A program made the translations under genes and the position numbers. A DNA stretch of 64,000 nucleotides from Sphingobacteriaceae bacterium (GTDB lineage Bacteria; Bacteroidota; Bacteroidia; B-17B0; Aurantibacillaceae). The DNA lies in assembly GCA_002319075.1 (NCBI GenBank), contig NVQB01000001.1, positions 3,782,001 to 3,846,000 of the forward strand. The letters are read 5' to 3'. Shown in pieces: positions 18,761 through 22,428 of the stretch (its first letter is position 1; each line of letters starts with the position of its first letter). The notes below the pieces were generated by a model, which was not told the origin of the DNA, searched no databases, and was given only the letters and a program-made list of their open reading frames with translations.

Positions 18761-21232
18761 TCAAGGAGCAACCGGTTGACTGGGCGTCAACATCTCCGGC
18801 CGTATCATCGGCAGGACTTTTTTCACCTCCGTGTAATTCGGATTAATCTGCAAAGCCTTATCCCAATTACGTTTAGCAAGATCATATTTACCCTGGTTAA
18901 AATAGATACCCCCCAAATTAAAATACGCTTCTGCATTCCGGGGTTCTACTAAAGTCAGAAAATTAAACGCTATGGCTGCCGAATCTAAACGTCCTCTGTG
19001 ATAACTGCTGTTTCCTCGATTCGTTAGATCCTGCGCAAACGCCTGGAAGTAACCGCGCAGGTAGGGATTATTAGGATACAAACGTTCTGCATTTTTCCAG
19101 TAAAAGAGTGCTTCAAAGTCTTTGTGCAATTTAAAATAGAGTAGTCCAAGATTAAGGTACCCATTCACATAGCGCGGATGCAGTTCTATCGCATGTTTCA
19201 AAACTTCAGCCCCATGATTTAAAACGGCTTCATTCTTCGTTTTGTACTTCCCTGATTTCACCTCTTCATCAATATTTTTCAGGGTGCCGTTAAAATCGTT
19301 AAACGTGGTATCGTAGCCCGGTTTTTTATATCCAATAATATCTCTTGTGTTCGAAAGATCAACGTATCGCGCGCCGGCATTGCCAAGGCAAAGCACTGAA
19401 TTCGGCATGGTCTTTACATCTTTTAAAAATAAGGTGACATCGTTTTTCCAATCAAAATTCCTTTCCCAGGTTTTACAGCCAAATAAAAAACCCACAACTG
19501 ACACGAAGAAACTTAATGCCAGTCTACGCGTGCTTAATTTAAGAACCGACAATTTATCCAGTCCTTTCAAAATTAGGTAAGCTGCAGCGATACAAAAACC
19601 TATGGACGAATGAAAAATCAAACGTTCGCCCATGGTCGCGCCAATATCCATAAGAACGTTGCCAATGAGCAGGGCAAATAAAATGTACGTCATCAGTGCA
19701 AAACCAAGTATGTGTTTTTTTAAAGTGTAATATATTGCGAGTATGACCATACCAATATGTATAACAAGAGAAAGAATGAAATCCCAACTCGTAAAATGTC
19801 TGTAGGCAATGGAATCAAAAGAATAATCAGACGACAAAGGATGCGGAAATGTCTGTAAAATCAAGTACTTCATTAGAACATAAACTTTTGTGCAAAATCT
19901 TTCTTCACCGGTTGCCAGCAAATAAGGGTTGTTGAGGATTTCGGTATCCGGCACACCTGGTTTTAATTTTACAGCCATCCAACGCATCCCAATATAAATA
20001 AGCACGACGAAAAATAACCAGCTCATCAATTTTAGAAAATTATTCTTTTTGCTTACTCCCATAAAAAAAACAACAACGCCAATAAAAAGAAAAGGAAATA
20101 ACCAAAAGGAACGTACAGGTTTGGCACCGGGCATAGCATGAACATCAAAATCTCTTTTAATGTATGTCATAATAAGGGCACAAAGCACGAAGGCAAATGT
20201 GACATACAGCGCAGGTTTAAATTGTTCTGTTTTTTTAAAGGTTCTAAAGTCAAAATCATTTTGTGTGAAAAAATAAACAGACAATGGAATAATAAATAAA
20301 AGCATAACCGCGTATTCCTTTGATAGCAATGCAAGCAAGAGCATGAGGCTGCACCAGAAAATGTGAATGGTTTTTTTTGTTTCTAAATACCGGAAAGTAT
20401 AAAAGAAAGTCAATGCAATAAATATCAAAGAAAAGAGTTCGTCACGGCTTTTTACATTGGCAATTGCCTCTGAATGTATCGGATGCATCGTAAATAACAA
20501 TGCAGCTAAAAAAGCAAGGTCAGGTTGGCTTCGGAAAAAATAACGCGAAAAAACCAGGTACAAAAACATACAGCCTAAGGCAAAACACCAGATGTTATTA
20601 AAGTGACGTACGCCTGCACCATAGAGTTGACAATCGATTTCATTAAAAATTCCGTCTTTGTTAATGTCTTCTTCTGGTTCGTCTTTAAAGTTTTTATTTT
20701 TATCCCAGCAGTTATAACATTCATTAGGTTGTGCCGAGCCGTCGAAGTTCAGATCTACAAAATCATTGTACTCGTAATTGGTTTCTGGCCGGCCGCAAGG
20801 GGTTGTGAAGTTAACCTGTCCTGCATCCAGCATACCGTTCTTATTCGAGTCTTCGCGTTTTAAATACAGTCCGGTTCTGTACGGACCAATGAATTCCTGT
20901 TCAATGGCAAAGCTCACGGCTGACAATGGTCTGTACCGTCCGCCCGCCAGTTGATCTGTAGCACACATACGCCTGTAAAAACTTTCGTATGCGTCTTTCA
21001 TCAAAATGTCTTTTATGCCTCTTACACCTTTAACTACATGATCGTTTTGATGAATGATAATGCCATCATCGAGGGCGTATTCGCCGTTAATAGACGTAAT
21101 GTAAAAAGTAAACGCTACTATGCCAATCAGCCATAAAGCGCTTCGCTGCGTAAGGAAAGAGACATACTGAAAGGGTAGATCGGCGGATGAAACAACGGGA
21201 GCTTTTAAAAAAGGTTTTTTAGGAGCAGACAT
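18761..21232 (-). CDS. TMTC/DUF1736-like TPR membrane protein with EF-hand-like loops
   Basis: 823 residues. Ten or more helices occupy about 33-620, followed by TPR repeats (about 640-815: E-L-H-P-R-Y-V-N-G-Y-L-N-L-G, V-E-P-R-N-A-E-A-Y-F-N-L-G, I-N-P-N-Y). The first extracytoplasmic loop has the acidic pair Y-A-L-D-D of GT-C O-mannosyltransferases and G-R-Y-R-P-L-S, both as in TMTC proteins. Unusually, residues 128-200 of this loop contain four D-x-N/D-x-D/N-G type calcium-binding loops (128-139, 160-171, 177-188, 189-200). It probably glycosylates exported proteins or lipids. The start is 60-odd bases downstream of nothing else on the strand, so it is monocistronic. Confidence 0.85.
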   Translation of the reverse strand: MSAPKKPFLKAPVVSSADLPFQYVSFLTQRSALWLIGIVAFTFYITSINGEYALDDGIIIHQNDHVVKGVRGIKDILMKDAYESFYRRMCATDQLAGGRYRPLSAVSFAIEQEFIGPYRTGLYLKREDSNKNGMLDAGQVNFTTPCGRPETNYEYNDFVDLNFDGSAQPNECYNCWDKNKNFKDEPEEDINKDGIFNEIDCQLYGAGVRHFNNIWCFALGCMFLYLVFSRYFFRSQPDLAFLAALLFTMHPIHSEAIANVKSRDELFSLIFIALTFFYTFRYLETKKTIHIFWCSLMLLLALLSKEYAVMLLFIIPLSVYFFTQNDFDFRTFKKTEQFKPALYVTFAFVLCALIMTYIKRDFDVHAMPGAKPVRSFWLFPFLFIGVVVFFMGVSKKNNFLKLMSWLFFVVLIYIGMRWMAVKLKPGVPDTEILNNPYLLATGEERFCTKVYVLMKYLILQTFPHPLSSDYSFDSIAYRHFTSWDFILSLVIHIGMVILAIYYTLKKHILGFALMTYILFALLIGNVLMDIGATMGERLIFHSSIGFCIAAAYLILKGLDKLSVLKLSTRRLALSFFVSVVGFLFGCKTWERNFDWKNDVTLFLKDVKTMPNSVLCLGNAGARYVDLSNTRDIIGYKKPGYDTTFNDFNGTLKNIDEEVKSGKYKTKNEAVLNHGAEVLKHAIELHPRYVNGYLNLGLLYFKLHKDFEALFYWKNAERLYPNNPYLRGYFQAFAQDLTNRGNSSYHRGRLDSAAIAFNFLTLVEPRNAEAYFNLGGIYFNQGKYDLAKRNWDKALQINPNYTEVKKVLPMIRPEMLTPSQPVAP

Positions 21233-21444: not shown

Positions 21445-21825
21445 TTAGTTGCGAATTACCAGTGTGGGAATACTGGTAAGCATTGTAGAACTATTTACAG
21501 ATATCGTAGTGTTTTTAATAGATAGCGACTCATCATAGGAAATAAAATTTCCTGCACTGTTTGAAGTGTAATTAGGTTCATTCAAATAGAAAATTCCGGC
21601 TGAGATCAATAGTAACGATAGACCCACGTGGTAAAATTTAAAATCCAGTTTAAAGAATAGTAAAAATCTTTCTAAAAAAGAAGTGTTTGCCGTTTCTACT
21701 TTTTTTCTTGCAAGTACTCTTTCACGCGCTGCAAAAATTAAAGCAGGGTTTGGACTTTCTATCTCTGATGCTTCCACTGATAGTATCTCTCCGAGAAAAT
21801 TATCAAGTTCTTTCTTTCTGTCCAT
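21445..21825 (-). CDS. Small single-helix protein, probable anti-sigma partner
   Basis: 126 residues. An acidic cytoplasmic N-terminus (about 1-65, with E-L-D-N-F-L-G-E-I-L and A-A-R-E-R-V-L-A-R-K-K) is followed by one hydrophobic helix (about 75-93) and a short polar tail. It starts three bases after the ECF sigma stop codon, so it is surely co-transcribed. Size, topology and position fit an anti-sigma factor that binds the sigma factor in the cytoplasm, but no recognised zinc or ASD motif is present, so this is inference from context. Confidence 0.65.
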   Translation of the reverse strand: MDRKKELDNFLGEILSVEASEIESPNPALIFAARERVLARKKVETANTSFLERFLLFFKLDFKFYHVGLSLLLISAGIFYLNEPNYTSNSAGNFISYDESLSIKNTTISVNSSTMLTSIPTLVIRN

Positions 21826-21828
21826 GTT

Positions 21829-22428
21829 TTAATGTATTACGGGATTAAATATCTGCAATCTGTCTTCCAGGATTTTTAAAGTATAATGCAGTCTCGATTT
21901 TACGCTGCCTTCCGGGCAATTCTGTATGAAAGCGATTTCTGCAATTGTTTTTTCTTCCTGGTATTTTAAAATAAATGCTTCTTTTTTTTCTGGTGGCAAT
22001 TCCTCTAGTGTTTCCTCTAACATTTTTCTAAATTCAACGGCATCGAGTTTGTTCGCTAGTTTTAAAAAACTACTTTCGTTTACCTTTGTATCCAGATAAA
22101 ATATCTCGTCCTGACTCTGCAAAACCACTTGTTTATGACGGTAATAATTTTTACAAGTGTTAGAGGCCACTGAAAAAATCCAGGTCTTAAATGAACGGCT
22201 TCGGTCAAACTTTTCAGGATGCTCCGCTATTTTTAAGAACAAATCCTGCAAAGCATCTTCTGCAAGATCTTTATCAAAATTCAACATGCGTGTGAAATAA
22301 ATCATCAGGCGCCTGCTGTATCTTTCGTAAAGCTCATCAAAGGCCATAACTTCTCCATTGCTCAGATGAAACATTAATTCTTCGTCGGGGTATATGGCGA
22401 ATTTGTTTTTTCTTTCAGGCATGGGCAA
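21829..22428 (-). CDS. ECF-type RNA polymerase sigma factor
   Basis: 199 residues. Region 2 (about 20-90): F-D-E-L-Y-E-R-Y-S-R-R-L-M-I-Y-F, then D-L-A-E-D-A-L-Q-D-L-F-L-K-I and F-K-T-W-I-F-S-V-A-S-N-T-C-K-N-Y-Y-R. Region 4 (about 135-190): L-P-P-E-K-K-E-A-F-I-L-K-Y-Q-E-E-K-T-I-A-E-I-A-F-I-Q-N-C-P-E-G-S-V-K-S-R-L. Followed after three bases by a small one-helix protein that may be its anti-sigma factor. The upstream region toward array 3 has only a weak -7-like sequence. Target genes are unknown. Confidence 0.92.
   Translation of the reverse strand: MPMPERKNKFAIYPDEELMFHLSNGEVMAFDELYERYSRRLMIYFTRMLNFDKDLAEDALQDLFLKIAEHPEKFDRSRSFKTWIFSVASNTCKNYYRHKQVVLQSQDEIFYLDTKVNESSFLKLANKLDAVEFRKMLEETLEELPPEKKEAFILKYQEEKTIAEIAFIQNCPEGSVKSRLHYTLKILEDRLQIFNPVIH

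Follow-up and report, generated by a model that had tools for sequence, protein, structure and literature searches.

The closest described relatives of the enzyme analysed here are TMTC1-4, O-mannosyltransferases with a GT-C membrane domain, an aspartate pair (DD) in its first loop, a YRP motif, a KE motif in a later loop and C-terminal tetratricopeptide repeats (TPRs). According to the available part of PMC7801869, the DD pair is motif M1 of the TMTCs, and in TMTC models motifs of the first loop touch the mannose and serve as the dome of the donor pocket. An enzyme with all these elements is encoded on a stretch of 64,000 nucleotides (hereafter the window) from a Sphingobacteriaceae bacterium (assembly GCA_002319075.1, contig NVQB01000001.1, positions 3,782,001 to 3,846,000). 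Into the loop that holds its DD pair a module of 92 residues is inserted, with four acidic 12-residue loops, two of them contiguous and enclosed by a pair of cysteines. From its residue pattern the module probably binds calcium. The protein is thus a TMTC-like GT-C enzyme with a conserved, cysteine-bracketed module, probably of calcium type, that also occurs in unrelated surface proteins.

Superposition of the AlphaFold2 model of the 823-residue protein with known structures by VIA-align 2 gave, as the best 21 rows, OST/STT3 of yeast, human and canine origin, PMTs, PglB and AglB (Z 15.8-20.2, 322-384 residues aligned), and a further AglB row, 3wak, was found at Z 13.9. The model was built from 46 sequences, i.e. 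the window protein and 45 of the 64 frames read, and has a mean predicted local distance difference test score (pLDDT) of 85.6 and a predicted template modelling score (pTM) of 0.84, with blocks of 77-91 across residues 121-200. These GT-C rows and the presence of the DD, YRP and KE motifs identify a GT-C enzyme built like the TMTCs, though not one that Pfam certifies as a TMTC. With respect to Pfam, TPR_2 passes its cut-off (55.6 versus 27 bits), PMT_2 falls just below it (24.0 versus 26.1 bits) and DUF1736 (PF08409), the model of the TMTCs, reaches 14.7 bits with a cut-off of 27. The TMTC label that the initial annotation had given thus holds for the GT-C fold, the DD pair and the TPRs, and fails for DUF1736 at the Pfam cut-off. 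TPR proteins filled the best 50 rows of a Foldseek search with the full model, and TPR matches occurred in the best 60 rows of a PDB sequence search with the full alignment. The YRP of the enzyme is preceded by GGR (GGRYRP), whereas motif M2 of the TMTCs reads SHKSYRP; K305-E306 are kept, and tyrosine stands at the T/Q position of motif M4, KE(T/Q)xxT. Mannose transfer, as performed by TMTC1-4, is a putative activity of this enzyme, and its calcium-type insert has no counterpart described in the available part of PMC7801869.

In the enzyme model one helix spans residues 29-49 and the next membrane helix begins at 206. The insert lies between the YRP motif and transmembrane helix 2 (TM2), after D55-D56, and so in the first extracytoplasmic loop together with the DD pair, where the initial annotation had placed it (Table 1). 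In GT-C topology the first loop is on the periplasmic side, and by analogy that of the present enzyme would be periplasmic too. The four segments originally pointed out (DSNKNGMLD, DLNFDG, DKNKNF and DINKDG) were all found as written within residues 128-200, which map exactly to positions 20851-20633 of the window on the minus strand. Loops 3 and 4 are directly contiguous and bracketed by C175 and C201, forming a unit of 27 residues; position 12 of loop 1 is not acidic in the window protein. Both structure models show the insert mostly as coil; the exceptions are a hairpin (140-152), turns of three residues and, after loop 4, a helix of five (199-203). For residues 153-198 nothing but a bridge and such turns is predicted.

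Table 1. Coordinates in the window of the enzyme gene, the elements of its first loop and the two genes upstream.
Feature	Position	Strand	Basis or remark
823-residue GT-C glycosyltransferase with C-terminal TPRs (TMTC-like)	18761..21232	minus	open reading frame (ORF), Pfam, AlphaFold2 model, VIA-align
D55-D56, catalytic-type DD, start of first extracytoplasmic loop	21065..21070	minus	invariant in 46-row alignment
C90, proposed disulfide partner of C146	20963..20965	minus	joint presence/absence across rows
Inserted module, residues 117-208, between YRP-motif helix and TM2	20609..20884	minus	absent from paralogue L003, present in orthologues
Loop 1, residues 128-139, DSNKNGMLDAGQ	20816..20851	minus	D128, N130, N132, D136 kept in 41 four-loop rows
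C146, proposed disulfide partner of C90	20795..20797	minus	joint presence/absence across rows
Loop 2, residues 160-171, DLNFDGSAQPNE	20720..20755	minus	D160, N162, D/N164, E171 kept in 41 four-loop rows
C172, directly after loop 2	20717..20719	minus	in 41/41 four-loop rows (selection criterion), 0/26 others
Core unit, 27 residues, C175-C201: CW + 12-residue loop 3 + 12-residue loop 4 + C	20630..20710	minus	match to model A7, positions 1-27, E 8.4e-12
Loop 3, residues 177-188, DKNKNFKDEPEE	20669..20704	minus	D177, N/D179, N/D181, E188 kept in 66/67 rows (not L085)
Loop 4, residues 189-200, DINKDGIFNEID	20633..20668	minus	D189, N191, D193, G194, N197, D200 invariant, 46 rows; dockerin-like pattern
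C-terminal TPR array, about residues 724-819	18776..19063	minus	Pfam TPR and aligned TPR structures
126-residue ORF, a single hydrophobic stretch seen by eye; like an anti-sigma gene in position only	21445..21825	minus	homologues between sigma and enzyme genes
Extracytoplasmic function (ECF)-type sigma factor	21829..22428	minus	Sigma70_r2 and Sigma70_r4_2; upstream of enzyme gene, same strand

A lack of conservation among orthologues had been named beforehand as a finding that would overturn the initial annotation, and the loops came through this test. All four are kept in each of the 28 same-genus loci read, out of 29 fetched (L026 has no frame), and 75 of the 77 loci from a scan of named genomes carry the module, L085 with one loop only, while L086 and L110 end before it. 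One of the two patterns used to find the named loci lies within the module; among the 39 named loci without that search pattern, 37 reach the region, and each of these 37 carries at least one loop (L085 in part). The protein is matched at an expect value (E) of 0.001 in 55 of the 60 genomes searched (the window's own included, 36 of the same genus), some of the matches being only insert-less relatives. The genome of the window has a second copy, L002, 73% identical and with the same insert, as well as the shorter relatives L003 and L006, which are without it. The 67-row tabulation of distinct sequences (Table 1) leaves out 12 named loci, L109, L026, five further loci and identical copies.

The 41 four-loop sequences were reduced to a non-redundant set of 25 that are less than 85% identical over the module, the window protein included. 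The putative ligand positions were counted as 1, 3, 5 and 12 of each loop (9 replacing 12 in loop 1), and each of the resulting 16 positions is Asp, Asn or Glu in all 25 sequences, with an average identity of 0.97, compared with 0.66 at the 57 other non-cysteine positions of the module (Mann-Whitney p 1.7e-7). This constancy, together with the presence of the module in 75/77 loci, makes the four-loop pattern unlikely to have arisen by chance. In open frames of more than 100 codons, in all six frames of the 64 kb window, the pattern D-x-[DN]-x-[DN]-G occurs three times, each time within the insert. When the 92-residue insert was shuffled with its own D/N-rich composition, a weak test beside that of conservation, four D-x-[DN]-x-[DN] segments arose in 381 of the 200000 shuffled versions and the tandem 12+12 core in none of them.

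The cysteines of the first loop change in pairs. Of the 67 distinct sequences, 34 have both C90 and C146 and 33 have neither; the two occur together in 34 of the 41 four-loop rows and are both missing in the other 7 and in all 26 rows that lack C172. Likewise, C175 and C201 are both cysteine in 64 sequences and replaced together by S/A or S/T in 3, and in L099, L103 and L111 the loops are kept and the bracketing cysteines absent. Such joint keeping and loss within C90/C146 and within C175/C201 would be the pattern expected of two disulfides.

The 12-residue acidic loop pattern of the module is that of EF-hand and dockerin loops. The module resembles EF-hands in its 12-residue loops with acids or amides at positions 1, 3, 5 and 12 and in the short helix 199-203 that follows loop 4 in the model, and differs from them in having no helix-loop-helix pair, tandem loops that touch and scores below the Pfam cut-off. 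Membership of the EF-hand family was accordingly rejected, since Pfam gave no row for the window insert and the best relative, L051, scored 16.4 bits with a cut-off of 25.4; helix-loop-helix structure was rejected as well, both models being mostly coil and loops 3 and 4 being contiguous. Of the EF-hand-like calcium loops proposed in the initial annotation, calcium-type loops therefore stand as the best reading, and EF-hands in the structural sense do not. With type I dockerins the likeness centres on loop 4, which has the pattern D-x-N-x-D-G-x-x-N-x-x-D, and matches from Pfam and from PDB sequences are sub-threshold; unlike dockerins, the module has two adjacent loops without a helix between them, enclosed by cysteines. 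Dockerin type I membership was rejected too (PF00404, cut-off 22.9 bits), the window insert scoring 14.2 bits and the collagen-like protein L135 20.1 bits. Thrombospondin type 3 repeats consist of successive acidic calcium loops that contain disulfides and have few regular secondary-structure elements. The module may resemble them in these general traits; five inserts gave no row with Pfam TSP3 at E 10, but the bracketing cysteines of the module change together.

PDB sequences were searched at E up to 10. The insert profile matched only seven short cellulosomal chains (three of them named dockerin) and two FrpC chains, and the profile of the 27-residue unit matched five cellulosomal chains, three secreted metalloprotease chains and SdrD. 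None of these nine plus nine matches is significant, the best having E 0.043; the proteins concerned are all, we assume, calcium binders.

On this evidence the module probably binds calcium, the identity of the ion being read from the loop sequences. The explanation that is favoured, and considered likely, is a structural clip of calcium and disulfides that shapes the first loop beside the active site of the TMTC-like GT-C enzyme. Calcium ions held by the Asp, Asn and Glu ligands, together with the disulfides C175-C201 and C90-C146, would fold the coil-rich insert into a rigid arm by the active site, with C90-C146 tying it to the remainder of the first loop. This arm would most likely hold the loop in a set shape, and it may contribute to placing the acceptor protein, the calcium being a constitutive structural ion and not a switch. 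Given where the first-loop motifs lie in TMTC models, at the mannose and in the dome over the donor, the module could plausibly act at the active site, perhaps with regard to the acceptor. If so, a calcium-type module in the DD loop would be a metal-dependent part that is not described for TMTCs in the available part of PMC7801869. The same part of that paper notes that an association of TMTC1/2 with calcium homeostasis had been made, from which nothing is concluded here.

Several observations weigh against such a clip. Only loop 4 is intact in L085, and C172, conserved in the four-loop form, has no evident partner. The rows share ancestry, so that the joint changes of cysteines represent few independent events. 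A model of the module alone gave 215 Foldseek matches against the PDB at E up to 10 and none at 0.001; the best 50 of the 215, starting from E 1.7, include many ricin-type chains, taken for chance matches, and no dockerin. With VIA-align 2 none of 525 chains reached Z 2 or more with the module model, which does not show that the fold is new. Moreover, AlphaFold models contain no ions, and no Pfam or NCBIfam model scored above its cut-off on the module or the 27-residue unit.

A regulatory role for calcium, as the initial annotation had suggested, would have low-affinity loops sense external calcium and gate the access of acceptors, with a sigma-factor operon tying expression to the state of the envelope. 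The module does lie in the same loop as the DD pair, and many relatives have a sigma-factor gene and a small ORF ahead of the enzyme gene, but there is no helix-loop-helix available to move, the constancy of the ligands and the pairing of the cysteines point to sites that are always occupied, and a stand-alone lineage of paralogues (L002, L010-L022) has the same module with no sigma homologue within about 1.4 kb upstream. No evidence for regulation was found, and the invariance of ligands and cysteines favours a structural role; gating is thus judged unlikely. What had been observed in the initial annotation is confirmed, and its interpretation is partly supported.

An equally small chance is given to docking, in which the module would bind other proteins in the manner of dockerin and cohesin and so recruit acceptors or partners. 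Loop 4 fits the dockerin pattern, and a model made from the enzymes only also detects the 27-residue unit in surface proteins. In the genome of the window, however, the unit was found only in the two paralogous enzymes (the next rows have E 0.42 and 1.05), which leaves no homotypic partner there, dockerin scores stay below the cut-off, and dockerin helices are not predicted. Both regulation and docking are therefore less likely than the structural clip. It is also conceivable, and highly improbable, that the insert is simply a hydrophilic, Asp/Asn-rich segment drifting at a tolerant site without binding metal: relatives from other families have unrelated, shorter or no inserts at the same site, but mere drift would not be expected to preserve the spacing within the core, to leave the ligands unchanged or to make cysteines change jointly.

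The distribution of the core unit was followed with the sequence models A5, made from two-loop enzyme rows only, and A7, representing the 27-residue unit with surface proteins included; a further model, A6, was made from 51 of the 57 module stretches fetched. Of 395 genomes of the class, 110 match A5 at E 0.001; among the matches listed, only those from families f1 (14 genomes) and f6 (6 genomes) combine the YRP stretch with the module. The remaining ones are either YRP stretches, some of them with a different insert, or modules that belong to other proteins. At E 1e-5, A7 found the unit in 47 of the 395 sampled Bacteroidia genomes, and 27 of these 47 belong to families other than f1 and f6. 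When 395 genomes were drawn from the whole phylum, it matched 17 at 0.001, and all matches except that of the window's own genome are partial, within positions 3-22. Nine other proteins bearing the unit were read (L134-L137, L139-L143), with the pattern CWDxNGNGxxDPxEDxNxDGxWNxLDC and with several copies in some. In seven of them Gly-X-X runs, recognized by eye, adjoin the unit; of the two stretches tested with the Pfam collagen model, L135 scores above the cut-off and L142 below. L140 is another surface-type protein with the unit, and one of the nine is a DUF6340 lipoprotein (Pfam E 6e-58). The unit of these collagen-like surface proteins is the same 27-residue unit as in the enzyme, since the enzyme-only model A5 finds it there; in the surface proteins it adjoins Gly-X-X runs and is often multi-copy, whereas in the enzyme it sits in a loop, accompanied in some lineages by the outer loop pair. 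The unit is also borne by a lipoprotein-like ORF (L188:2617-3240) on a viral contig of 231 kb.

No open-licence paper was found by the letters of the unit, and the accessible portions of the open-licence literature on TMTC, GT-C with calcium, O-glycosylation in Bacteroidetes, TSP3-like loops and collagen-like proteins with dockerin gave no description of the module. Naming the 27-residue unit would annotate many proteins.

Sister lineages of the enzyme have loops 3 and 4 only, mostly with both bracketing cysteines. The outer pair, loops 1 and 2, may have arisen from the core by duplication and divergence, because loop 2 finishes with E-C and loop 4 with D-C, and C172 is perhaps what remains of a duplicated unit whose first cysteine was lost. 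For 48 enzymes a quick tree was computed with the insert excluded and long branches flagged, L149, L151, L162 and L168 being left out. On this tree the presence of the module requires two changes, and holding the 33 carriers together was not rejected (probability in the approximately unbiased test, p-AU, 0.668). A single clade of the 15 four-loop rows was rejected (p-AU 9e-121), and therefore the outer loop pair was gained or lost more than once. At the insertion site, 20 further stretches (one without a frame) have no insert (7 residues between the cut points), a short one (16 or 27 residues) or 45-57 residues without such loops. The first-loop site is a permissive hot spot of insertion. Longer loop-less inserts, helical by eye, were seen at the same first-loop site in L138, L151-L154, L159, L160, L162 and L167, which belong to other families.

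With regard to protein glycosylation in Bacteroidota, the transferase for the conserved core glycan of O-glycosylation is undiscovered according to the available part of a 2025 review, which suggests searching for homologues of eukaryotic O-mannosylation (PMC12871550). By its modelled fold the present enzyme family is such a homologue, and it fits that suggestion in kind. Relatives without the module were found in at least 41 of 296 sampled genomes of the phylum (E 1e-15), a lower bound obtained with a model of nine module-less rows and at most five candidates scored per genome. A phylum-wide role as protein mannosyltransferase is weakened by this patchy occurrence. A bolder proposal, to which only a small chance is given, is that the unit is an unnamed mobile micro-domain of calcium and disulfides in Bacteroidia which, grafted into the DD loop of a GT-C enzyme, would have produced a calcium-dependent, sigma-linked transferase that glycosylates proteins and owes its choice of acceptors to the module. 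On this reading the enzyme could, in the present lineage, be the transferase that places the first sugar, mannose, on proteins.

Upstream of the enzyme gene lie the sigma-factor gene and the small ORF of Table 1, the latter without a match among the Pfam families at E 0.01. Sites resembling promoters or terminators were rarer than in shuffled sequences. The order of sigma gene and small ORF before the enzyme gene recurs in many relatives, e.g. L008, L009, L023, L024, L037, L059 and L081. A sigma homologue stands upstream on the same strand in 16 of the 77 named loci (63 of the 77 have at least 2 kb upstream). Another 44 loci, whose flanks are shorter and several of which are the same genes as among the 77, gave such a homologue in 10 cases; it accompanies two-loop and four-loop enzymes alike. 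As to the remainder of the enzyme, L022, L025 and L027-L036 are 76-100 residues longer than the query, and their matches to it break near residues 330-400, which suggests that they carry another variable insert between later membrane helices.

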